A stretch of DNA of 64,000 nucleotides from a bacterium. Its GTDB lineage: Bacteria; Electryoneota; RPQS01. Made by a program: the position numbers and the translations under genes. Positions 7,304-19,507 of this stretch are shown piece after piece (position 1 is the first letter of the stretch; every line of letters begins with the position of its first letter). Location: contig JABWCQ010000009.1 of the NCBI GenBank assembly GCA_013360195.1, positions 1 to 64,000 of the forward strand, written 5' to 3'. Under the pieces are notes generated by a model. It saw nothing but the letters and a program-made list of their open reading frames with translations. It did not search any database and was not told the origin of the DNA.

Positions 7304-8563
7304 TCACGTCTTCAAATCTTTTTTTCGCGCGGCCGGGAAGAGAACGTTATTCAGAATCAAGCGATAGCCGGGAGAATTCTTGTGTAATGCCAGTTGAGTG
7401 GGCGGGTCGCCGACCTGATGGCGGTAGTCTTCGGGGTCATGGCCGCCATAGAAAGTCCAGAACCCTTCGCCGAATTTGCCGTGAATATATTTGATTTCGT
7501 CCGTGCCTTCGCGCTGAGCCAAGATGGTTACGCTTGGCTTGAGATATTCCTTGTGAAATGCCGTGGTTTGACCCAGAAAACCCTTCACGACATTCGTGTG
7601 GCACTGCGTGAGCATCGTCGGAATTGGATCAAACTTCGCCGAGAAATCAAATAACGTGAAATAATCTCCCTCGCCGCCCTGCGCGAGCATGCCCGAAGTC
7701 GGACTCACATCAATTGACGAGAATTCATACACCATCGGATCGGTGATGAGATTATAATTCTGAAACGCGAGCGCGTTGCCGTATTCCATCTTACTGGCAA
7801 AATTCGGGTCAATGCCGTCGCCATCGAACACGTTGGCACAGATGTCGGTCGACTGCGCAGCCAGAGCGATATCGTAGCTGTCCGTCGCGCTGCACATCGC
7901 GAACAAAAATCCGCCGCGGCCCATGTAGGCCTTCAGCGTACGCGCAACGGCGAGTTTCATTTCCGATACTTTGGTGAAGCCGAGTGCCTTGGCCGAGGCC
8001 TCCTCCTGTTGCACCTGCCGCTGATACCAATCGGCGTTGCGGTACATCGAGTAGAATTTGCCATATTGCCCCGTGAAATCTTCATGATGCAAGTGAACCC
8101 ACTCGTATTTCGAGAGCTTGCCTTCGAGGACATCCGCGTCATAAATAATCTCGTAGGGAATCTCGGCATAGGTAAGCGCGAGGTTCACCGCGTCGTCCCA
8201 CGGGCCTTCGCGCACTTCATCCGGAGCGTAAATGGCGACTTTGGTGGCCTTTTCCAGCAGCACGACTTCCATGTTATTGTTCTCGATTTCGAGATAGATG
8301 TCGCCCGCGCTGCCGGCATCCTCCGCCCGGACACCGCGCAGTCTGCATTCATTGGCGATTTCATCATACGTGTCCAGCATGAAACTGCCGCCGCGATAAT
8401 TCAAAAGCCACTCGACCTTGATTCCCTTCTCAAGCGCGTCATATGCGACACCATAGGCTTTCAAGTGGTCGGTCTGTGAAAGATCCATCGGAATCAGGAG
8501 TTTCTGCGCAAACGCGGGAAGTGCAATGAGAATGAGCGTGAGTAGGAATGAGAGTCTTTTCAT
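7304..8563 (-). CDS. Secreted conserved protein of the family mislabelled 'asparagine synthetase B'
   Basis: About 419 residues with a signal peptide (MKRLSFLLTLILIALPAFAQ). The mature start KLLIPMDLSQTDHLKAYG and the segments VEWLLNYRGGSF, WDDAVNLALTYAEIPY and WVHLHHEDFTGQYGKFY belong to a family widespread in Bacteroidota and relatives. I recall it as commonly annotated 'asparagine synthetase B', but it shows no glutaminase Cys2 and no ATP-pyrophosphatase SGGxDS motif, so that name is almost certainly wrong. Conserved His/Glu/Asp in LHHEDF and FLFAMCSATDSYD suggest an enzyme. The frame is open well upstream, but the signal peptide fixes the start at 8561-8563. Confidence 0.75.
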   Translation of the reverse strand: MKRLSFLLTLILIALPAFAQKLLIPMDLSQTDHLKAYGVAYDALEKGIKVEWLLNYRGGSFMLDTYDEIANECRLRGVRAEDAGSAGDIYLEIENNNMEVVLLEKATKVAIYAPDEVREGPWDDAVNLALTYAEIPYEIIYDADVLEGKLSKYEWVHLHHEDFTGQYGKFYSMYRNADWYQRQVQQEEASAKALGFTKVSEMKLAVARTLKAYMGRGGFLFAMCSATDSYDIALAAQSTDICANVFDGDGIDPNFASKMEYGNALAFQNYNLITDPMVYEFSSIDVSPTSGMLAQGGEGDYFTLFDFSAKFDPIPTMLTQCHTNVVKGFLGQTTAFHKEYLKPSVTILAQREGTDEIKYIHGKFGEGFWTFYGGHDPEDYRHQVGDPPTQLALHKNSPGYRLILNNVLFPAARKKDLKT

Positions 8564-8613
8564 CGAGAAGTCATGTGAAGGAGGCAAGCGCTGCGGATGC
8601 CGCCGCGGTAACT

Positions 8614-9120
8614 CTAAGAATTGTTGTCTGAAGTCTGCTGCCGTTCCTGACGCTTTTCGCGCGCATGAATCAGCTCGCGCGGGATGGTGAGCATCAAGAC
8701 ATGCAAAACGAGACCGGTGGTGACGGCTATGAAGAGCTGCCTGAACCCGATTTCCCACGTCATAACATAGTAGTAAAACGTGTAAAGCGAGAGCGGCAGA
8801 AGCACCATGATGCTTGTAAACGTGCCCGGCGAATAGCGGGCGGAGGAAATGGAGAGCGCGATATGAAACCACGCATTCACAAACAGAATGCCCATCGCGG
8901 GCATCGTGTACCACGTATGATCCAGCCCAAGAAAGCCAACCAGAGCGAACACCGGCCAGCCGACGAAGATATTCAGTATCAGCGCGAATTTCGGCGATAT
9001 CGGAGAGGTTTCGCTCCCGCTTCTGAATACTTCCTTGTTGAACCACGGCAGAAATCCGCCGGGAAAGACATACTCCTCAAACTGATGGAGCATCAGCGCC
9101 GGCAGCGCAGCCCAAAACAC
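8614..9120 (-). CDS. HXXEE-domain membrane protein
   Basis: About 168 residues with five hydrophobic segments. It carries the diagnostic HQFEEY motif near residue 12 (His-x-x-Glu-Glu) followed by VFPGGFLPWFN. A second cluster, NAWFHIALS, and VLMLTIPREL near the end fit the family, whose function is unknown though metal binding is suspected. The GTG at 9118-9120 is the best standard start, but conserved-looking residues (EILEWIYHHPQW) lie in frame just upstream with only a CTG available. The real protein may therefore be about 15 residues longer. Confidence 0.7.
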   Translation of the reverse strand: MFWAALPALMLHQFEEYVFPGGFLPWFNKEVFRSGSETSPISPKFALILNIFVGWPVFALVGFLGLDHTWYTMPAMGILFVNAWFHIALSISSARYSPGTFTSIMVLLPLSLYTFYYYVMTWEIGFRQLFIAVTTGLVLHVLMLTIPRELIHAREKRQERQQTSDNNS

Positions 9121-9190: not shown

Positions 9191-11074
9191 TTAGGATACC
9201 TTGTTGGCAAGCACTCGCGCTTTGCGGCGGGCCTGCTCAAGGTAGAGTGAACGGGGATATTCGACAAGATACTCCTGCAGCAATTTCAGGGCTAAGTCTT
9301 CCTGCTGCAGGTCCTCCAGCGTGATGACCGCAATCAGATACTTTGCGCGCGGGAGATCAACGGATTCGGAATGGCTTTCGACGAATGTATTCAAAGCTGC
9401 GATGGCCTCATTCGGCTTGCCTGCTTCGCGCAGAGATTCAGCTTCCTTCAACCGACTCCATTCCGCCAAGCGTCCGTATTTCAAACCGGAGGCCGCCTCA
9501 CCGTATTTTTGCGCGGAGAGTTCGTAATTCTGCCGGAACTCCGCATAATCCGCGTCGGCAAATGCGCGCAATGCGCCATGGAAACCGCCGCCTGACAGCA
9601 GCGCTTGATACAGAATCGCATCGTTAAATGTTGTGTTCTGCGTGCTGCCCTTTAGTATTGAATCCAGTGCCGCTTCGGCAAGGGCAGTCGAGTCACGCCA
9701 AATATTTGCGCGGGCAATGCGCATAAGAACCTGTGCGGACTCATCGGTAATTTCACCGCGTTGAGTGAAAACCGAACGGCTCCATGCGTCAATCGCCGCA
9801 CCGTATTCACCCATGTACGCGTGTGCATCGCCAATTCGCATGCCCGCCTTCTGTTTTAGCGGCGGTTTGGTGCGCTGGAAAATTCCCGTGTATTCCGCCA
9901 AAGCTTCCTGCGGCCTGTTCTCGTGCTCAAGTAATATTTCCGCAATCCGGAATCGAGCCTCTTCTATCTCCGGTGATTTCGAGCGTCCGGCAATGAACCG
10001 TTCATAAGCAATCTTTGCCTCGCTGAAGTTGCCTTTCGCCTCAAGACATTGCGCAAGCCCCAGTTCAGCCCGCTCGACAAACTGGTCCGCAGGCTTCCAC
10101 GCCAAAACTTTCTCAAATCCGCGCTGCGCAAGTTCAATTTCGCCCTCGGCAATCAGCTGCTGCGCCGTGGACAATACGCTGACCCCTCCGGCATCAGATA
10201 GAGAATCCGCGGTAATCGTGGCTTCAAGCGCTTTCTCCAGATGCCCCGACTTCATCGTGTAGCCCGCGTACATTCTCCATATCGTCGGGTCCTTGCGGTC
10301 ACGTTTGATAGCCTGGTCAAGCGTGTGCATCACCGTCTGTTCGACTGTCGAATCATCCGGGAAACGGCTCAAATAGCTCTGCGCTATCTGCCACGCGGTC
10401 GGCGACGTCTTGGTGTAAAGAAGCAGCTCCTCCGTCGCACCTGCGTAGTTCATCTGCGCTTGAAGGCTTGACGCGAGTTCCAGCGCCATATAGGTCGGCA
10501 CTTTTTCATTTTTGCGGTACTCGCGAATCAGCTTCTCACTCTCCTCCCAGCGGCGGTTGCGGTGAAGCGCATTTATCAGCACGCGCAGCGCGTCCGGATT
10601 GTGAGGCTGTGTGGCAAGAGCTTCCCTCCACAAGTCCCAAGCCGCTTCTTCTTCATCGCGTGCAAGCTTCACCTCGCCCAAGGCAATCGTCAACTGAAAC
10701 GGACTCGACGGATCCATCCATTGAGAGGCAAGTCCGCGCAGCCTGCCTTTTTCAATCTGCTCTGCCAGAAATGCCTCGGCTTCGTCAAACCTGCGCAATT
10801 GAATAAAACAGTTCGGAATCGCCGCAATCGCCTGCGCTTCCAACGGAGAAACCTTCAAGACCTCTTGCCAGGCGACCAGCGCACCTTCGTAGTTCCCGCG
10901 CTGCTCTTCGCGGCGCGCGCGATCCATATGCACCTGCTCTGCGGTTCGCTGGACATTGGGCTTGCGCGGCTGCGGAGACTGACCCGAACCACCCGGTTGG
11001 ATGATTATCTGCTGTGCCTGAACCGAACCGAGCGCGAACAGCGACACCAGTACTATATATAGGAGAGAGGTCAT
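9191..11074 (-). CDS. Exported TPR-repeat protein (627 residues)
   Basis: A signal peptide (MTSLLYIVLVSLFALGSVQA) is followed by a Gly/Pro/Gln linker and then at least ten tetratricopeptide helices-pairs through the C-terminus (for example EEQRGNYEGALVAWQEVLK, DQAIKRDRKDPTIWRMYAGY, QPHNPDALRVLINALHRNR). It would act as a periplasmic protein-interaction scaffold, as in the BamD/YbgF-like or gliding/secretion-associated TPR proteins, but no specific subfamily is evident. Its ATG overlaps the TGA of the sorting-domain protein upstream, so it is translationally coupled to it. Confidence 0.8.
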   Translation of the reverse strand: MTSLLYIVLVSLFALGSVQAQQIIIQPGGSGQSPQPRKPNVQRTAEQVHMDRARREEQRGNYEGALVAWQEVLKVSPLEAQAIAAIPNCFIQLRRFDEAEAFLAEQIEKGRLRGLASQWMDPSSPFQLTIALGEVKLARDEEEAAWDLWREALATQPHNPDALRVLINALHRNRRWEESEKLIREYRKNEKVPTYMALELASSLQAQMNYAGATEELLLYTKTSPTAWQIAQSYLSRFPDDSTVEQTVMHTLDQAIKRDRKDPTIWRMYAGYTMKSGHLEKALEATITADSLSDAGGVSVLSTAQQLIAEGEIELAQRGFEKVLAWKPADQFVERAELGLAQCLEAKGNFSEAKIAYERFIAGRSKSPEIEEARFRIAEILLEHENRPQEALAEYTGIFQRTKPPLKQKAGMRIGDAHAYMGEYGAAIDAWSRSVFTQRGEITDESAQVLMRIARANIWRDSTALAEAALDSILKGSTQNTTFNDAILYQALLSGGGFHGALRAFADADYAEFRQNYELSAQKYGEAASGLKYGRLAEWSRLKEAESLREAGKPNEAIAALNTFVESHSESVDLPRAKYLIAVITLEDLQQEDLALKLLQEYLVEYPRSLYLEQARRKARVLANKVS

Positions 11075-12126
11075 TTGGTCAAGGTTAAGGGTATCACGCG
11101 TGATTGTCCGGATGATGTGAGTTTCAAAAAGTATCTGCCGCTTCCCACGTCACCGGCCGCCCAGCTCGTGCGATAGCTTCCTGCCTGATGAACCCCATCA
11201 GAGAGAGTTTCGACTTCACGGCCAAGTAAATCAAATATCGTCAACAGCGCGTTGCCCGGCACAGAAACCCGATATTCAATGGTCGAACTTGAATTGAAAG
11301 GATTCGGATAAGCTGTCAAGGCAAGCTGGTTCGGAAGTTCAGGTCTTTGGTCGTCCGCGTCGAGCAATTCACCTAACGGAAAAGCTGCAATCTGCGCACC
11401 GCCGCCGTATGAGCCGTCTGTCGTCACTTCGGTAAACGCATACACAAGCGAACCGCCAATCTCTTTCATAACAAGACCGTTCAACAGATGGTTGTCGGCA
11501 ACGTCTTGAATATGCAAATTCGAGTTGAATGTGCCGTCTCCCTCAAGTCCCATAAACCAGAACTGCATGAACTCGTCACTACGAATGAAGGCCGAAAGCA
11601 CAAACCGTTCGTCTTGTGTGCGCAGTATTCCCCAGCTTGTAACGTAGCTTTGCGGAGCAAGCGGACCGGGGTCCCACGGCGGAGTGTGGGTCACGGAGAT
11701 TCCATCATATGTGGACAACCACACGCGAAAGTCAATGATCGGAGGAGTCGGAGACACGGAGCCCGCAACAAATGTCAGGATGCCGTTCTCATAGTGAAAT
11801 GCGAAGCCGGATGGACTCTCACCTTGCTGCAGTTCGCTTTCGCGCAGCACGATGCTGTCGGCGAAGAAGCCTTGTGTGTCAAACAGATATAGCAGCGACC
11901 GCATCGTCCACCGTCCGCCGCTGAAGACACTGCTCTGCGACACCAAATGCGGCGCGCCGTTCACCTCGTATGAGAAGTACGTTTCGCCAAGGGCAAGCGT
12001 GTCGGAACCCGTCAACTCACCCGCTGCGCTGTAACGAAACACCTGCTGGCCAATGGAGAAATCGCGTGACGAAACAAAATATCCGTTCGCAAGTTTTAAG
12101 AACCTGGGAAAGAACGCGGGCATCAA
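11071..12126 (-). CDS. C-terminal part of a secreted propeller-like protein with PNPFN sorting domain
   Basis: Repeated beta-strand units (residues 1-260) lead to a C-terminal sorting domain: LTAYPNPFNSSSTIEYRVSV, LLTIFDLLGREVETL and SGRYFLKLTSSGQSRV. This is the hallmark of type IX-like or related outer-membrane secretion in the FCB group. The listed ATG (12124-12126) is only the first ATG after a stop. The frame is open back to a TGA at 12187-12189 and is continuous with the signal-peptide ORF 12187-12528. There is no ribosome site at the ATG and no signal peptide in this part, so it is not a plausible independent gene. It is either half of a recoded gene or of a recent pseudogene. Confidence 0.6.
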   Translation of the reverse strand: MMPAFFPRFLKLANGYFVSSRDFSIGQQVFRYSAAGELTGSDTLALGETYFSYEVNGAPHLVSQSSVFSGGRWTMRSLLYLFDTQGFFADSIVLRESELQQGESPSGFAFHYENGILTFVAGSVSPTPPIIDFRVWLSTYDGISVTHTPPWDPGPLAPQSYVTSWGILRTQDERFVLSAFIRSDEFMQFWFMGLEGDGTFNSNLHIQDVADNHLLNGLVMKEIGGSLVYAFTEVTTDGSYGGGAQIAAFPLGELLDADDQRPELPNQLALTAYPNPFNSSSTIEYRVSVPGNALLTIFDLLGREVETLSDGVHQAGSYRTSWAAGDVGSGRYFLKLTSSGQSRVIPLTLTK

Positions 12127-12135
12127 AGCCGTTTC

Positions 12136-12189
12136 CTCCAGCAGCGTCCCCTCCGGGGAGTAGAACTGGAGCTTCGTCTCGGCAAGTCA
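12136..12189 (-). promoter_or_regulatory. In-frame TGA with downstream bSECIS-like hairpin
   Basis: The TGA codon occupies 12187-12189 (minus). Thirty-two bases later comes an apical loop GGA (12152-12154) on a 5-bp stem TCCCC/GGGGA, with a lower 6-bp stem CTCCAG/CTGGAG (12166-12171 with 12136-12141). Published bacterial SECIS criteria ask for roughly 16-37 bases from UGA to the apical loop and a G among the first loop bases; both hold. In the paralogue encoded next door the aligned residue is Cys. No Sec machinery is visible here, so this remains a hypothesis. Confidence 0.4.
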
Positions 12190-12528
12190 TTCGTGATAGA
12201 TCATTTTCGCCCACGCGCCGCTGGACAGCGTTTGATACTCAACGCGCGGCGGACAGCTTACCAAGCCTGTGTCCTGAATGTCAAGTGTGTCGCGAGGACC
12301 TGTAAGTGTTCCGTTCAATTCGATATGCTGACCGTAGGCGCCAATCCAATCCACATTTGCACTCGCCCATGTGCAATAGAACCGGTTATCGTTCGTCAAT
12401 TGAATCGTCGGAAAGAAGAACCGCTCGTCCGTTTCCGGATCCATGCGCACCGGATCAAACTGAAGCTGCGCGCCTGCACTCAGACTCAGCACGCAAACCA
12501 GAATTAACACTCCAAGTTGTTTGACCAT
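12187..12528 (-). CDS. N-terminal part of the TGA-interrupted secreted protein
   Basis: It starts at ATG 12526-12528 with AAAGGA six bases ahead and encodes a signal peptide (MVKQLGVLILVCVLSLSAGA). About 93 residues of beta-propeller-like sequence follow: FFFPTIQLTNDNRFYCTW, DTGLVSCPPRVEY and AWAKMIYHE, then TGA. The same frame runs on as LAETKLQFYSPEG and ends in the PNPFN sorting domain. The whole frame (11071-12528) would be 485 residues. It is a paralogue of the lipoprotein immediately upstream (12540-13664): NDNRFYCTW against NDDRTLNCQW, and the same 21-residue gap from VSC/VQC to TGA/Cys. The stop is thus either recoded, mutated or a sequence error. Confidence 0.6.
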   Translation of the reverse strand: MVKQLGVLILVCVLSLSAGAQLQFDPVRMDPETDERFFFPTIQLTNDNRFYCTWASANVDWIGAYGQHIELNGTLTGPRDTLDIQDTGLVSCPPRVEYQTLSSGAWAKMIYHE

Positions 12529-12539
12529 CATTCGTCCTT

Positions 12540-13664
12540 TCACAGTTTAAATCCAATCCACTCGACCGAGTTGGCAACCGCACTCGTGTCGGCCGCGACG
12601 GTGCAGGCGACATGCACCGTGTTCCCCCACTTGACGGCGCAGAACTCCTGAATCGTTTCGCTGACGGGAGACTCGGCATTACCGCGCTTTGACCAATAAC
12701 CCTCGCTGTCCTGCGCAAGCACGACGACACTCATGCCCTCAACACTTTCCGACAGCGCCACAAGACAGGGAAACTCCTCTCCCGCGTCGATGGCGCGGCA
12801 GGCGACGACATTCAGTCCGCTGAAGGGCCGGAGTTTCGCCTGATGGGTGGAAAGCAGCCTGGTTCCATTCACAACGTGCGTTTCAAACATCGCGTCGTCC
12901 TTGCCCAGATTGTAGCCGCTCACGATGTAAATTTCACCGTCTTGAACGAAATAGTCCGTGCCGAAACTCTGCTTACCGGAAAATCCGCGATTCACCGTTC
13001 CGCTGTCAATCCAGCTGCATGCGCGTCCCAAATGGTAAATATGGAACGCGTCGTCCTCCCGTTTCACCAGCGTTGCGCCGTCACCCGCGGCAGCGGCGAA
13101 ATCCGGCACCGGTAAATCAAGCGTGTCACGGCTCAGTTCGCGGCCTGAATTGTCCAGCCAGATCGTTATCAGGCCGTACTCGGTAGAGCTGCCGTGCACT
13201 ATCAGGTAAACGGAATCAACTTTGAGGGGATAGGTTTGAATGGCGGGAGCGGCAAGCCACGCCGCTTCGCGCTTGCCCGTGCTGTCACGGAAAACCATGA
13301 AGCTCTCTTGAATACAACTGTGAGCAACGAAGGTGGCCGTGCTGTGACGTCTGTCCGTCCATCGCATCAACTCCGGTATGCATTGCACATACCTGCGCTG
13401 AATGAAGTCATAAGACAAAACGGTGTCAAATCGTCCGCGCGCCGGATTCCAATTCACTCCCGCGCCGCCGACGCTGTCACGATGAAACTCTATCCACTGA
13501 CAATTCAGCGTTCTGTCATCGTTGACAACGAACTTCGGTGAGAAAATCTGCTCCGAAAGTCCGCCGTCAAGCCGAGCGGTTTGCGGACCCGCCGTGCAGC
13601 CCGCTAACAGCGCAACAATGAGAATGCAAAGCGCATGCGTCAACGCATTGGGTCCAGCATTCAT
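12540..13664 (-). CDS. Lipoprotein paralogous to the TGA-interrupted secreted protein
   Basis: About 374 residues with a lipoprotein signal peptide (ILIVALLAGCTAG, Cys near residue 23). The mature part is made of repeated beta-rich units such as FSPKFVVNDDRTLNCQWIEF and LITIWLDNSGRELSRDTLDL, consistent with a beta-propeller. It lacks the PNPFN domain of its downstream paralogue. It is anchored in the membrane, whereas the neighbour should be secreted. The start is uncertain: ATG 13662-13664 follows the DUF4175 stop closely, while GTG 13677-13679 and TTG 13641-13643 are alternatives. The 5' end overlaps a dispersed GGGTCCAGC repeat. No function is known. Confidence 0.6.
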   Translation of the reverse strand: MNAGPNALTHALCILIVALLAGCTAGPQTARLDGGLSEQIFSPKFVVNDDRTLNCQWIEFHRDSVGGAGVNWNPARGRFDTVLSYDFIQRRYVQCIPELMRWTDRRHSTATFVAHSCIQESFMVFRDSTGKREAAWLAAPAIQTYPLKVDSVYLIVHGSSTEYGLITIWLDNSGRELSRDTLDLPVPDFAAAAGDGATLVKREDDAFHIYHLGRACSWIDSGTVNRGFSGKQSFGTDYFVQDGEIYIVSGYNLGKDDAMFETHVVNGTRLLSTHQAKLRPFSGLNVVACRAIDAGEEFPCLVALSESVEGMSVVVLAQDSEGYWSKRGNAESPVSETIQEFCAVKWGNTVHVACTVAADTSAVANSVEWIGFKL

Positions 13665-13672
13665 GCCGGTTA
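13645..13672. repeat. Dispersed GGGTCCAGC repeat, copy 1
   Basis: Plus-strand pattern GCAttGGGTCCAGC followed by aTTCAtgCcGGTTA. It matches copies at 41426-41452, 42875-42902 and, inverted, 54282-54306. Its final TTA is the stop codon (TAA, minus strand) of the DUF4175 gene, and it also covers the start of the lipoprotein gene. Confidence 0.6.
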
Positions 13673-16600
13673 TTGCCACTTTGAAAGAGCATCAAAGTAT
13701 TTGCGGATTAGCTCTTCGTAATCGGGAGTGTACTTCGCGTCAAGCGCCCGCAGCAAATCTTCACGCAGTTCATCCTGTCCCGGCTTTTTCGGCAACTCGC
13801 GTGGCGATGAACGCACCATGTCAATACCCGTGTTTGACTTTCGTTGCGGAGAAAACTCGCGTTCGCGGTTCGCGCGCTGGAAATCAAGCAGCTTCGATTC
13901 GATCTTGTTCTGCCGCTCAATCGTCTCCGGCGTAATCTTCTGCGCACGCAAATCCTTCGCGACTTCTTCCATCTCTTCCTTCAATCCGTCGAGACGGCCC
14001 GTCGTTTCACGTGAAGCCGCGGCCTCCTGAGCGAGTTCGCCCATGGACTTCGCCAGCGCCTCCTGCTCGGCGGCAAGCCGCTGCATCGCCGCCGCCTGAC
14101 CTTGCGACAACGTGCCCGGATTCTGCATCATGGACATCGTCTGCTGGTTGATCTGTCCCTGCTTCTGGCACATGCCGCCGGCCTTGTTGCACGTCGAGTT
14201 GCTGTTCGGTTTGTTGCACTGACTCTGGCACTGCTTGCATGCGTTGTTTTGCTGCTTCAGCGTTTCATTCAGCGAAGCGAGAGCTTGCTTCCTATAGTGT
14301 GTCGCCGAACGTGAATCCCGCTCTGCCGTCGCGTTGCAGGCCGATTGCATCTGATTGATCGTCTCCTCCATCGCCGCCATCAGCTTCGGAGTTACGCTCA
14401 TCGTTTTCTTCGCAAGCTCCGTCATGTCCTCCTGAACACGCTTCATCGCCTGCTTCAGATTCTCCTGCTCTTCGGCAAGCTCGCGCATCTGCGGACTGTT
14501 CGGATCCATATTCTGCGACTGCTGCCATAGCTGTTCCTGACGCATGGAGAGATCGAGCATCTTGTCGCGCTGCTTCTCCATCTCCATCATCGTTTCGAGG
14601 TCCTGATTCTGCTGCATCTGCTGACGCATGTCCTGCATCTTTTGCGCCATCTCGGACATCTTCTTCTGCTGCTTCTTCCCCTGCTTCTTCGCCGACTGGT
14701 TCTGACACATCTGCATCGACTGCGAGTTCTGCTCCATCTGCTCGGAAAGCTGCTCCTCCTCCATCTCCTTCTGAAGCTCCTGAGCCTGCTGTTGACCCTG
14801 AACCTGATCCTGCTTCATCTGCTCGGCAAGCTGCTTCATCTCCTGCTCAATCTTCTTCATTTCTTCGGCCAGCTTCTCCTGCTGCTTCGCGTTTTCCTGC
14901 GCGTTCTGAGGAGTGTTCTGGTCCATCTTCTCATTGAGCTGCTCCTGCTGCTTCGAAAGTTCGTCCAGACGGCGCGCAAGTTCGTCCAACTTCTTCTCGG
15001 CCTGCATCTGCTTCAGCATGTTCAGCGTCTGATCCAAAGCAAGCTGAAACTGCTCCTGCATCTTCTGCATGTTCTGAAGCGCTTCGCGCATCTCCTCAGG
15101 TGTCGGCTGCTGCATCGCCTCGGCCAGCTTGCGCATAGCTTCCCGCATTTCCGGCGTGATGACCTCTTCCACGAGTTCCTGTATCTGCGCCATCTTCTCC
15201 ATCACTTCGGGAGAATAGAGCGAACGAATCTGATTCTGCATCTGCTGCATCTCAATCGCTTGAGCAACCTGCTCAAGAACCTGATTCATCTGCTCCTGCT
15301 GTTCCATCAATTGATTGATTTCCTGCTTGCGCTCGTACGTCATCTCGGGATTCGACTTGAACTCCTCGACGGCCTTCTCCACTTCCTCGCGCAAATCCTG
15401 CGAATGCTCGAGCAGTTCTTCAAGCGTGATGGTTCGCTTTTCTTCCATCTGCTCCTGCTGTTCGAAAATTTCCGCCATCGACGGGAAGCGCAGCACCCGC
15501 ATTTCGCTCTTGGCACGCTTCGGCCCGCTGATGCGGTCGTTGTCCCAAACCTCCACGAAAAGAAGCACTTGATCCTCGGGCAGCAATTGCAGCGGCGTCA
15601 AGTCGAACATCGTCTCCACCACACAACGCCCCGGCTCAGTCACACGATAGTCGAGAGCCATGCGCTCAAAATTCTCCTCGGGAATATCCGTCATTTGCTC
15701 CCACGGCGACGGACGGAAATAGCGCAGCGTCATCTTCGAGAATCCATAATCATCCGCCGCGTCGGCCACAAGCGGTATCTTAATGTCCGCGGCTATCTCC
15801 ATGTCGTTTGCGGGCTCGACCAGCGAAATCACCGGAGCTTCATCCGGACGGGCGTTGATGCGATACGAAATCGCGTCGCGGCTCTCGCGTCCCTCGTTGT
15901 CCGTGAGCTTTATTTGATAGGTTCCGCTCTTCGACACGGTAAATTCGCCGTTCGCCTTGCTGCCGTCCAAATTCAGTGGAAGCCTCTCGCGCGGTGTCGT
16001 CAGGTTGTCGCCGCTGATATCAAAAAACTCTATCGTTGCGCTCGCCAATTGCTTCGTCGAAGAAATCGAAAGTCGTGCTGTGGTGCCCACAACCGCTGAA
16101 ATATCCCCGATATTCTCTTCCAATGTCAGCGGCTGCAATTCAGTGTAAGCGGGCGGAGTTAGCGTGACCGTCAAATACCGCACCGCCGGTAATTCCTGAA
16201 TCGTCACTGTGTGCTTTTCAGACTTGACATTGCCTGAGTAAGCCCAATAGTCAAACGTCGTCGCCAAACCCGACCACGTGACCGTAAACTCACCGTTCTC
16301 TCCTGCAACGGTCAGCGGTGTGTCCGCCGAGCGCCCTTTTTCTTGACGCGTGATAGTGACTTCTTGCGGAATTTCTCCTGTGGCTTTGACAACCACCTTC
16401 AGTGAATCTCCGCGCACAAGTTCCACGTCACCCGGTTCAATCGTCAACTGAAATGCCGCCGGAAGAGAAAAATCCTTGTTCGGATTCATCACGCGCTCGG
16501 CCGCCGACATCAGCGGACCGCCAAACACAATCAGAAGCGCCACCGCCGCAACTGAAGTGAACACTGCATAGCGCGCGTTCTTTTTCACATACGTTTTGTC

Positions 16601-17056
16601 CGGCAGCGTTGCCGGTTGAATCGGAATCAGCTCTTCGGCCACACCGCGCCCCGCCGCTAAGATCAACTCCGGAGAGACTCCGTCGCGCTCTGCAGTCTCA
16701 ACTTTGTCCAGAAGCTGCAAGGCGTTCAGCACGCGATCCCGGATTCCCGGAATTCTCTCCGCGTATTGTCCCGCAAGCTTCTGATCCGTCGGCGCGAATG
16801 CGGTGTATTTCAGAATCGGCCATACCACTCCGAGCCCCAGCGCCGCAACCGCCGACACCGTCCACAACCCCAGCAGCACCGCGCGCGCGCCGCCGCTGAA
16901 ATGTCCCAGCGATTCCAACACCAGCACGAGCAGCGTCACGCTGACCAATGCGGCCAACGCGAACAGCGCATGACTCTTCAATGTATTGACAAGAACAGCG
17001 CGCCGTAAGCCCGCCATCCAGTTGCGTATCGTCGAGAGTACTTCTCGTGCACCCAT
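13670..17056 (-). CDS. Giant DUF4175-type membrane protein with Met/Gln/Glu-rich coiled coil
   Basis: About 1128 residues. Two or three N-terminal membrane segments (about 25-90 and 155-175) are followed by a periplasmic part with beta-sandwich-like domains (about 190-500). A very long helical region rich in Met, Gln, Glu and Lys comes next (about 520-960; for example EQMEEKRTITLEELLEHS, ETMMEMEKQRDKMLDLSMR), then a basic C-terminal tail ending YIRKYFDALSKWQ-like. This is the DUF4175 family, usually encoded beside MoxR, DUF58 and von Willebrand (Bat) genes in FCB bacteria; none of those is here. The start ATG 17054-17056 has AAGGA upstream, and the frame beyond it lacks a better site. A function in envelope complex assembly is inferred only from family context. 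Confidence 0.75.
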   Translation of the reverse strand: MGAREVLSTIRNWMAGLRRAVLVNTLKSHALFALAALVSVTLLVLVLESLGHFSGGARAVLLGLWTVSAVAALGLGVVWPILKYTAFAPTDQKLAGQYAERIPGIRDRVLNALQLLDKVETAERDGVSPELILAAGRGVAEELIPIQPATLPDKTYVKKNARYAVFTSVAAVALLIVFGGPLMSAAERVMNPNKDFSLPAAFQLTIEPGDVELVRGDSLKVVVKATGEIPQEVTITRQEKGRSADTPLTVAGENGEFTVTWSGLATTFDYWAYSGNVKSEKHTVTIQELPAVRYLTVTLTPPAYTELQPLTLEENIGDISAVVGTTARLSISSTKQLASATIEFFDISGDNLTTPRERLPLNLDGSKANGEFTVSKSGTYQIKLTDNEGRESRDAISYRINARPDEAPVISLVEPANDMEIAADIKIPLVADAADDYGFSKMTLRYFRPSPWEQMTDIPEENFERMALDYRVTEPGRCVVETMFDLTPLQLLPEDQVLLFVEVWDNDRISGPKRAKSEMRVLRFPSMAEIFEQQEQMEEKRTITLEELLEHSQDLREEVEKAVEEFKSNPEMTYERKQEINQLMEQQEQMNQVLEQVAQAIEMQQMQNQIRSLYSPEVMEKMAQIQELVEEVITPEMREAMRKLAEAMQQPTPEEMREALQNMQKMQEQFQLALDQTLNMLKQMQAEKKLDELARRLDELSKQQEQLNEKMDQNTPQNAQENAKQQEKLAEEMKKIEQEMKQLAEQMKQDQVQGQQQAQELQKEMEEEQLSEQMEQNSQSMQMCQNQSAKKQGKKQQKKMSEMAQKMQDMRQQMQQNQDLETMMEMEKQRDKMLDLSMRQEQLWQQSQNMDPNSPQMRELAEEQENLKQAMKRVQEDMTELAKKTMSVTPKLMAAMEETINQMQSACNATAERDSRSATHYRKQALASLNETLKQQNNACKQCQSQCNKPNSNSTCNKAGGMCQKQGQINQQTMSMMQNPGTLSQGQAAAMQRLAAEQEALAKSMGELAQEAAASRETTGRLDGLKEEMEEVAKDLRAQKITPETIERQNKIESKLLDFQRANREREFSPQRKSNTGIDMVRSSPRELPKKPGQDELREDLLRALDAKYTPDYEELIRKYFDALSKWQ

Positions 17057-17166
17057 AGTCGTCTGTTCCTTCAGTCGTTTACCGCGAATATCACGGTCGT
17101 TCCATAGTTCGCGGCAGCAGGGCATGTCCTCGTAAGGATGTCTTCACCTGCTCCATGCGCGAGTAT

Positions 17167-18790: not shown

Positions 18791-19507
18791 CTACTCCACT
18801 CCCCTTGTAAGGGCGTACACCAAAACATTCGTCCCCATATCCAGTGCCGCTTTACGTTTTTCCGGAGGATCGTTGTGAATCTCTTCAGCTTCCCACCCGT
18901 CGCATAAATCGCTCTCGTAATTGTAAAAGCACACCATCACACCGTTCACGAACAGCCCGAACCCTTGCGCGGATTTTTTATCGTGCTCGTGAATCTTCGG
19001 CAGGCCATTGGGAAAGCGGGTTGTTGCTGTATAGATCGGATGGCTGAACGGCAGTTCGTACCACTCCGCGTCCGGCAAGACTCTTTTCATTTCGCGGCGG
19101 AAGCTCGCGTCCATGCCGTAATCGTCGTTGGCAAACAAAAATCCGCCTGCATTAAAATAGGCGCGCAGGTTATTCACCTCGTTTTCCGAAAACGAGATAT
19201 TGCCGTGACCGTTGATGAAGGTAATCGGGTAGCTGAACAGCTCGACCGACGACGGCTCCACGGCCCGCGGTTCGGGGTCAAAATCCACATTCGCACCCGC
19301 TTCGGCATAACGCAACAGATTACTGAGCGCCCTTCCGCCGGAGTACCAATCCCCGCCTCCGTTATATTTCATCAGCCCCACTTTCTGGGCCGTATTTGTC
19401 CCTTGCGCGAACATTGGAGAGGACACCAACACCCCCGCCAACAGCGCGTACGTCACCTTTCCCCCGCAAATCCTCCGCAGGGTCTTTGTCAAACGTTGTG
19501 TTTTCAA
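18791..19507 (-). CDS. DUF4159 exported protein
   Basis: A 238-residue protein with a long signal peptide (cleavage near SSPMFAQ, about 35). A DUF4159 domain, related to the class I amidotransferase/ThuA-like flavodoxin fold, then covers residues 42-235: VGLMKYNGGGDWYSG, ITFINGHGNISFSENEV, FLFANDDYGMDASFRREM, then FSHPIYT. Family genes commonly accompany DUF4175, MoxR and Bat genes in envelope clusters. DUF4175 is 2.5 kb downstream here on the same strand. The nucleophile of true amidotransferases is absent, so a binding or structural role is likely. Confidence 0.82.
   Translation of the reverse strand: MKTQRLTKTLRRICGGKVTYALLAGVLVSSPMFAQGTNTAQKVGLMKYNGGGDWYSGGRALSNLLRYAEAGANVDFDPEPRAVEPSSVELFSYPITFINGHGNISFSENEVNNLRAYFNAGGFLFANDDYGMDASFRREMKRVLPDAEWYELPFSHPIYTATTRFPNGLPKIHEHDKKSAQGFGLFVNGVMVCFYNYESDLCDGWEAEEIHNDPPEKRKAALDMGTNVLVYALTRGVE

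Follow-up and report, generated by a model that had tools for sequence, protein, structure and literature searches.

Does a TGA in the middle of an otherwise open reading frame end that frame, or does it specify an amino acid? The question arises on the minus strand of a 64,000-nucleotide stretch of DNA (the window; positions 1 to 64,000 of contig JABWCQ010000009.1, assembly GCA_013360195.1) from a bacterium of RPQS01, a class of Ca. Electryoneota (PMC10439189). Upon translation, the frame running from 12528 to 11074 is interrupted only once, by the TGA at 12187-12189, which is codon 114. On the comparisons given below we judge, with a probability of roughly 0.96, that this UGA is decoded as selenocysteine (Sec), and the product of the gene is very probably an exported beta-propeller selenoprotein. 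The features on which the argument turns are as follows.

11071-12528, minus strand: selenoprotein gene, 485 codons from the ATG at 12528, with an internal Sec-TGA and a terminal TGA at 11071-11073 (from translation, selection and homologues)
12187-12189, minus strand: TGA codon 114, read as Sec114, in the same column in 7/7 homologues and replaced by Cys in paralogues
12253-12255, minus strand: Cys92 codon, putative resolving partner of Sec114, invariant at fixed spacing in seven Sec homologues and three Cys paralogues
12136-12171, minus strand: hairpin resembling a bacterial selenocysteine insertion sequence (bSECIS), which folds in all homologues
12166-12171 with 12136-12141, minus strand: lower stem of the hairpin (CTCCAG/CTGGAG), followed by internal loops
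12155-12158 with 12148-12151, minus strand: upper stem of the hairpin (CCCC/GGGG), with the apical loop GGA at 12152-12154
12540-13679, minus strand: Cys-containing paralogue, a predicted lipoprotein without a sorting tail, with the same predicted propeller and a Cys pair (from hhalign and a structural model)

Conservation of the TGA codon and its hairpin

A preliminary description of this DNA had proposed that the two parts form one frame split by a lone TGA, and translation bore this out. It had listed them as two open reading frames (ORFs); their shared frame stands, but the start assigned to the second, a TTG at 12126, does not, being a product of mechanical listing in a frame that is open from 12186 without a new start. 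The same description had pointed to a spacing of 21 residues leading up to the TGA in this protein and to a Cys in the neighbouring one, and to a GGA-loop hairpin 32 nt past the TGA with bSECIS geometry. Both were recovered here, and its suggestion of a possible secreted selenoprotein gains support from the conserved TGA and hairpin, the Sec machinery and the Cys paralogues. As for two of the lines of inquiry it had proposed, a search for selA, selB, selD and tRNA-Sec located all four in the genome of the window, and the homologues carry TGA without exception at the codon in question, the paralogues Cys, and none any other sense codon.

Using the read-through protein as a query against the genomes of relatives, we identified five full-length homologues, each with one internal stop that is always TGA, and searching the phylum with a profile brought in a further member (in genome G012, by our numbering, in which the window's genome is G000) that is 16% identical, comes from a different family of the same order and likewise contains one internal TGA. 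These six proteins are 60 to 16% identical to the window protein, and the seven genomes are separate assemblies from two families. The internal TGA falls in a single alignment column in all seven full-length homologues, with TAA, TAG or a sense codon in none, and codon 114 is among the 21 positions that are invariant in the seven-sequence alignment within the domain of ~390 residues. At the ends of the same genes TGA, TAA and TAG all occur as terminal stops, and a plain conserved stop would therefore be expected to vary as well.

In codon alignments, protein-level constraint is equal upstream and downstream of the TGA. The two closest sequences have a nonsynonymous divergence (dN) of 0.29 before the TGA and 0.34 after it, with a proportion of synonymous differences (pS) of about 0.7; the similar dN on the two sides argues that the downstream part is under purifying selection as protein. 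Across the family synonymous divergence is near saturation (pS about 0.66-0.83), and retention of both TGA and hairpin in 7/7 copies at such divergence is, judged from these alignments, far beyond chance.

Published criteria for a bSECIS are a loop of 3-9 nt, a stem of 4-16 bp, a G in the first two loop positions, a distance of 16-37 nt from the UGA and a minimum free energy of -7.5 or below (PMC13188914). Within these ranges, the hairpin after codon 114 has a GGA loop on a CCCC/GGGG stem (CCCC-GGA-GGGG) 32 nt after the TGA and folds at -14.7 to -20 kcal/mol. The seven sequences can be aligned gap-free across the 66 nt counted from the TGA, and TCCCCGGAGGG is identical in 7/7. The codons of the SPEG motif encoded here (TCC CCG GAG GGG) are constant in the seven homologues save for one third base, while elsewhere each invariant residue that has four or six synonymous codons is specified by two to five of them. 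Of the cells of the alignment assigned to hairpin pairs 95.7% can pair, a share that drops to 36-61% if the partner is shifted by one to three columns, and the outer pair occurs as C-G, G-C and A-U. Taken alone, the hairpin is weak evidence: among 400 random TGAs in the window 182 satisfied permissive bSECIS rules, though only 2.3% had a fold at least as stable. When a covariance model of the hairpin was run over 11 genomes of the family, the selenoprotein gene was the sole match in the six carriers, and no other gene with the same element was found in these genomes (next matches E > 0.2).

The Cys-containing paralogue supplies a comparison from outside the Sec family. In it, too, 21 residues separate two Cys, the second of them in the motif HSCIQES, matching the 21-residue interval from Cys92 to the TGA (Cys92 being 22 residues before Sec114). 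Profile-profile alignment of the Sec and Cys families (hhalign) extends over the full length with 99.4% probability (E 6e-22) and places Cys opposite the TGA. Relatives of the paralogue occur in G001 and G006, so that Cys occupies the Sec column in 3/3 paralogues; in an unrooted tree the three stand on one long, fully supported branch. When the seven Sec and three Cys proteins are aligned together, the invariant residues come down to W, Cys92, A, Cys/Sec114, F and two G.

The means to decode UGA as Sec are encoded in G000, where SelA, SelB, SelD and a tRNA-Sec with a UCA anticodon are all above curated cut-offs. The SelD gene (L049; G000:C4:129453-130367) itself contains an in-frame TGA (L049:1531-1533) at the known Sec position, in the context RCAG-U-ASK, and this genome therefore holds at least two selenoprotein genes. 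SelA is above cut-off in 34/39 genomes of the phylum, far commoner than the selenoprotein gene, whose presence thus does not simply track the use of Sec. Two full-length SelA genes apiece were seen in the phylum members G016, G017, G021, G022, G025, G028, G031 and G034.

These observations bear on two explanations in which codon 114 is not read as Sec. That the TGA arose by nonsense mutation or base error, leaving a pseudogene, is suggested by the normal use of TGA as a terminator elsewhere in the window and at this gene's own end, yet the same codon is TGA in seven separate assemblies from two families and purifying selection persists beyond it; the homologue TGA and the downstream constraint lead us to reject mutation, error and pseudogene alike, as scarcely credible. 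Alternatively, the TGA might be a real and conserved stop that yields a product of 113 residues, the rest being translated separately or reached by plain readthrough that inserts a standard amino acid. The second part does hold a full sorting domain, and hairpins after a stop can promote readthrough. However, such a stop would fall inside a blade of the predicted propeller, it has not drifted among TGA, TAA and TAG as the terminal stops have, the paralogues have Cys at this place and the Sec machinery is complete. We consider this explanation very improbable and reject it, plain readthrough included, on the homologues and on selection. Decoding of codon 114 as Sec is accordingly the reading we carry forward.

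The predicted propeller and the Cys92-Sec114 pair

AlphaFold2, run on the seven Sec sequences, gave a model with a mean predicted local distance difference test score (pLDDT) of 87.9 and a predicted template modelling score (pTM) of 0.84, and we read its strands as forming seven blades of four strands each, the N-terminal strand apparently completing the last blade to close the ring.

11377-12459, minus strand: predicted seven-bladed beta-propeller, residues 24-384 (AlphaFold2 and Foldseek)

In Foldseek searches against the PDB the model matched propellers (best E 2.6e-8); these matches were generic and provided no functional lead. The all-beta model is not a thioredoxin fold, and the protein contains no CxxU or UxxC motif. 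Codon 114 maps inside blade 2. In the model Cys92 precedes the strand at 94-100, in the loop before the first strand of this blade, and Sec114 follows the strand at 106-112, in the loop after the second; because 92 + 114 equals 100 + 106, the two residues would be opposed in a regular hairpin. In propellers, such loops are found next to the channel on the top face. Going by strand positions, then, Cys92 and Sec114 should make a cross-strand contact in top-face loops. In the model of the paralogue (pLDDT 87.6, pTM 0.83; numbering of the modelled chain) the strands at 97-102 and 108-114 are bracketed by Cys94 and Cys116, the same arrangement as in the Sec protein.

We propose that SelB and Sec-tRNA-Sec would bind the hairpin just past the UGA and so place selenocysteine at residue 114, that the signal peptide and the tail for the type IX secretion system (T9SS) would carry the finished protein to the cell surface or outside, and that the seven-bladed fold would bring Cys92 and Sec114 opposite each other across the blade 2 hairpin on the top face. 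In a redox cycle through a selenenylsulfide the attack would most likely come from Sec114, with Cys92 as the resolving residue, giving an oxidoreductase of the thiol/disulfide or peroxide type. A redox pair is the simplest suggestion because an invariant Cys and Sec stand at fixed spacing in one predicted hairpin and are matched by Cys-Cys in the paralogue; that the two cycle through a selenenylsulfide is a proposal to which we give even odds.

Two other roles for the pair deserve consideration. Propeller top faces often bind ligands, and Sec114 and Cys92 might serve not in redox catalysis but at the cell surface as a site for selenium or for a soft metal or metalloid (e.g. Hg, Cu, As). Metal binding via Sec has been suggested for several families of bacterial selenoproteins (PMC13188914). 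Nevertheless, no conserved cluster of His, Met or Cys accompanies the pair, just the W, A, F and two G already named being otherwise shared by the Sec and Cys forms, and no metal-resistance genes were found among the immediate neighbours scanned, so that we regard metal binding as unlikely, if still a serious candidate. A purely structural role, in which a Cys-Sec bond is a cross-link that stabilises the exported propeller, would suit an exported protein whose paralogues carry two Cys in the equivalent positions. But Sec is costly where a plain disulfide would suffice, and although a change from Sec to Cys is easy, 7/7 copies retain the TGA and the SECIS element; a mere cross-link seems to us decidedly doubtful.

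Several considerations weigh against reading this gene as a redox-active, exported propeller selenoprotein. The Sec assignment is a prediction from computation on sequences, and such data alone do not separate redox catalysis from binding of a metal or metalloid. Covariation in the hairpin is thin, a single pair being altered on both sides and the observed score being reached by 30/500 shuffles, because the element is nearly invariant; moreover, the hairpin of the seventh homologue, as drawn, is short of one upper-stem pair. The propeller model was built on 7-10 sequences, and the contact proposed between Cys92 and Sec114 follows from its strand positions. Lastly, the gene is missing from several near-complete genomes of the family and is therefore dispensable.

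Predicted export, gene neighbourhood and distribution

Both ends of the protein carry predicted export signals, and conserved genes flank the locus.

12466-12528, minus strand: signal peptide, residues 1 to about 21, recognised by eye as a hydrophobic N-terminus ending in AGAQ, with a modelled helix at 2-18
11098-11310, minus strand: T9SS type A C-terminal sorting domain, residues 407-477 (TIGR04183, PF18962)
9191-11074, minus strand: TPR-repeat protein (Pfam TPR), conserved downstream neighbour that begins inside the 3' end of the selenoprotein gene
13670-17125, minus strand: DUF4175 protein (PF13779, E 2.9e-15), conserved upstream neighbour

The signal peptide is one we infer from its sequence. 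The sorting domain matches TIGR04183 with E 7.7e-9 and 35.4 bits (cut-off 23) and PF18962 with E 4.4e-6. SprA was the component of the T9SS translocon for which we searched, and it is above cut-off at G000:C5.

The order DUF4175 - selenoprotein gene - TPR, with or without an intervening gene, is found in 5/7 genomes (G000, G001, G006, G003 and G010). There is no trace of the selenoprotein gene at the syntenic place in G007 and G008, where the order is DUF4175 - PAP2-like phosphatase - TPR (L075 and L074, respectively), and in G010 this PAP2-like gene and the selenoprotein gene occur together; by gene order this is a clean gain or loss at a syntenic locus. In G011, the sister of G012, only a remnant persists (L057; G011:C4:16029-16238), comprising the signal peptide and about 70 residues and flanked as in G012 by an aminotransferase gene and a D-3-phosphoglycerate dehydrogenase-like gene, which likely reflects gene loss. 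Across 386 genomes a combined profile convincingly identified seven Sec genes, three Cys paralogues and the G011 remnant. Carriers of the Sec gene are thus 7/386 genomes from one order; a weak, partial match in a genome of another phylum (G324, E 1e-4) seems to reflect chance similarity between propellers. Named public records with a family member, from a scan with a 6-row alignment, are bacterium SJ276, Calditrichaeota metagenome-assembled genome (MAG) DeMMO2_36 and, with accession prefix RPQS01, a MAG of candidate division KSB1.

Further upstream, near the DUF4175 gene, lies a DUF4159 protein (18791-19507), and both of these families are poorly characterised; the neighbourhood (DUF4175, TPR, DUF4159) gave no hint of a substrate. 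Downstream of the TPR gene, window positions 7304-8479 encode a conserved exported protein of unknown family (KLLIPMDLSQTDHLKAYG...) with no Pfam match and with matching ORFs in L063 and L065; the mechanical ORF at 7304-9046 is over-extended at its start.

Relation to known selenoproteins

The decoding route has the features of bacterial selenoproteins made via SelB and a bSECIS, such as FdhA and SelD: an in-frame UGA, a G in an apical loop at 16-37 nt, SelA, SelB, SelD and tRNA-Sec, and Cys paralogues. The family differs from these in not being among the 119 prokaryotic selenoprotein families of a 2026 catalogue (PMC13188914), which, judged by names, includes no propeller and no T9SS cargo. 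The Sec-bearing domain matched nothing in Pfam or NCBIfam, where the sorting tail alone matches, nor did a profile search find a PDB sequence. Against Pfam, NCBIfam, PDB sequences and the 119-family catalogue, therefore, the novelty lies in the family itself, the fold predicted for it and its export, while the decoding route is standard.

With regard to fold, the common selenoprotein architecture is thioredoxin-like with CxxU or UxxC, whereas here a propeller is predicted with the partner Cys 22 residues away on a neighbouring strand. To our knowledge, no prokaryotic protein with encoded Sec is known to have a propeller fold. The propellers of Dyadobacter Dfer_1899 (PDB 5hx0, of unknown function) and of the EPTP domain of LGI1 (5y2z) resemble the predicted fold, with Foldseek E values of around 1e-7 to 1e-8 and a TM-score near 0.5, at a sequence identity of only about 10%. 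With regard to location, the protein shares with T9SS type A cargo (TIGR04183/PF18962) a signal peptide, a sorting domain above cut-off and SprA in the genome, yet going by catalogue names no prokaryotic selenoprotein family is described as such cargo, and the literature searched contained nothing joining selenoproteins with the T9SS. Catalogued selenoproteins that are also predicted outside the cytoplasm (TonB receptor of the FCYXU type, the MtrB/PioB-family barrel GSU2204, DUF1573 and UshA-like types) belong to families unrelated to the window protein, which has no NCBIfam match to any of them.

The locus thus adds an uncatalogued selenoprotein family that is unusual in fold, site and location. 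Annotation pipelines would cut such genes at the UGA into two seemingly unrelated fragments, and homology-based selenoprotein finders that need a known family or numerous Cys homologues would probably overlook this one, the sole Cys relatives found being distant paralogues. There is about an even chance that the protein represents a new class of selenoenzyme, a surface-exposed, T9SS-exported propeller with a cross-strand Cys-Sec site at the channel mouth that would perform extracellular selenium redox chemistry in an uncultured lineage. The family provides a clean test case for Sec insertion in an exported T9SS cargo and raises the question of what role an extracellular Cys-Sec propeller may play.

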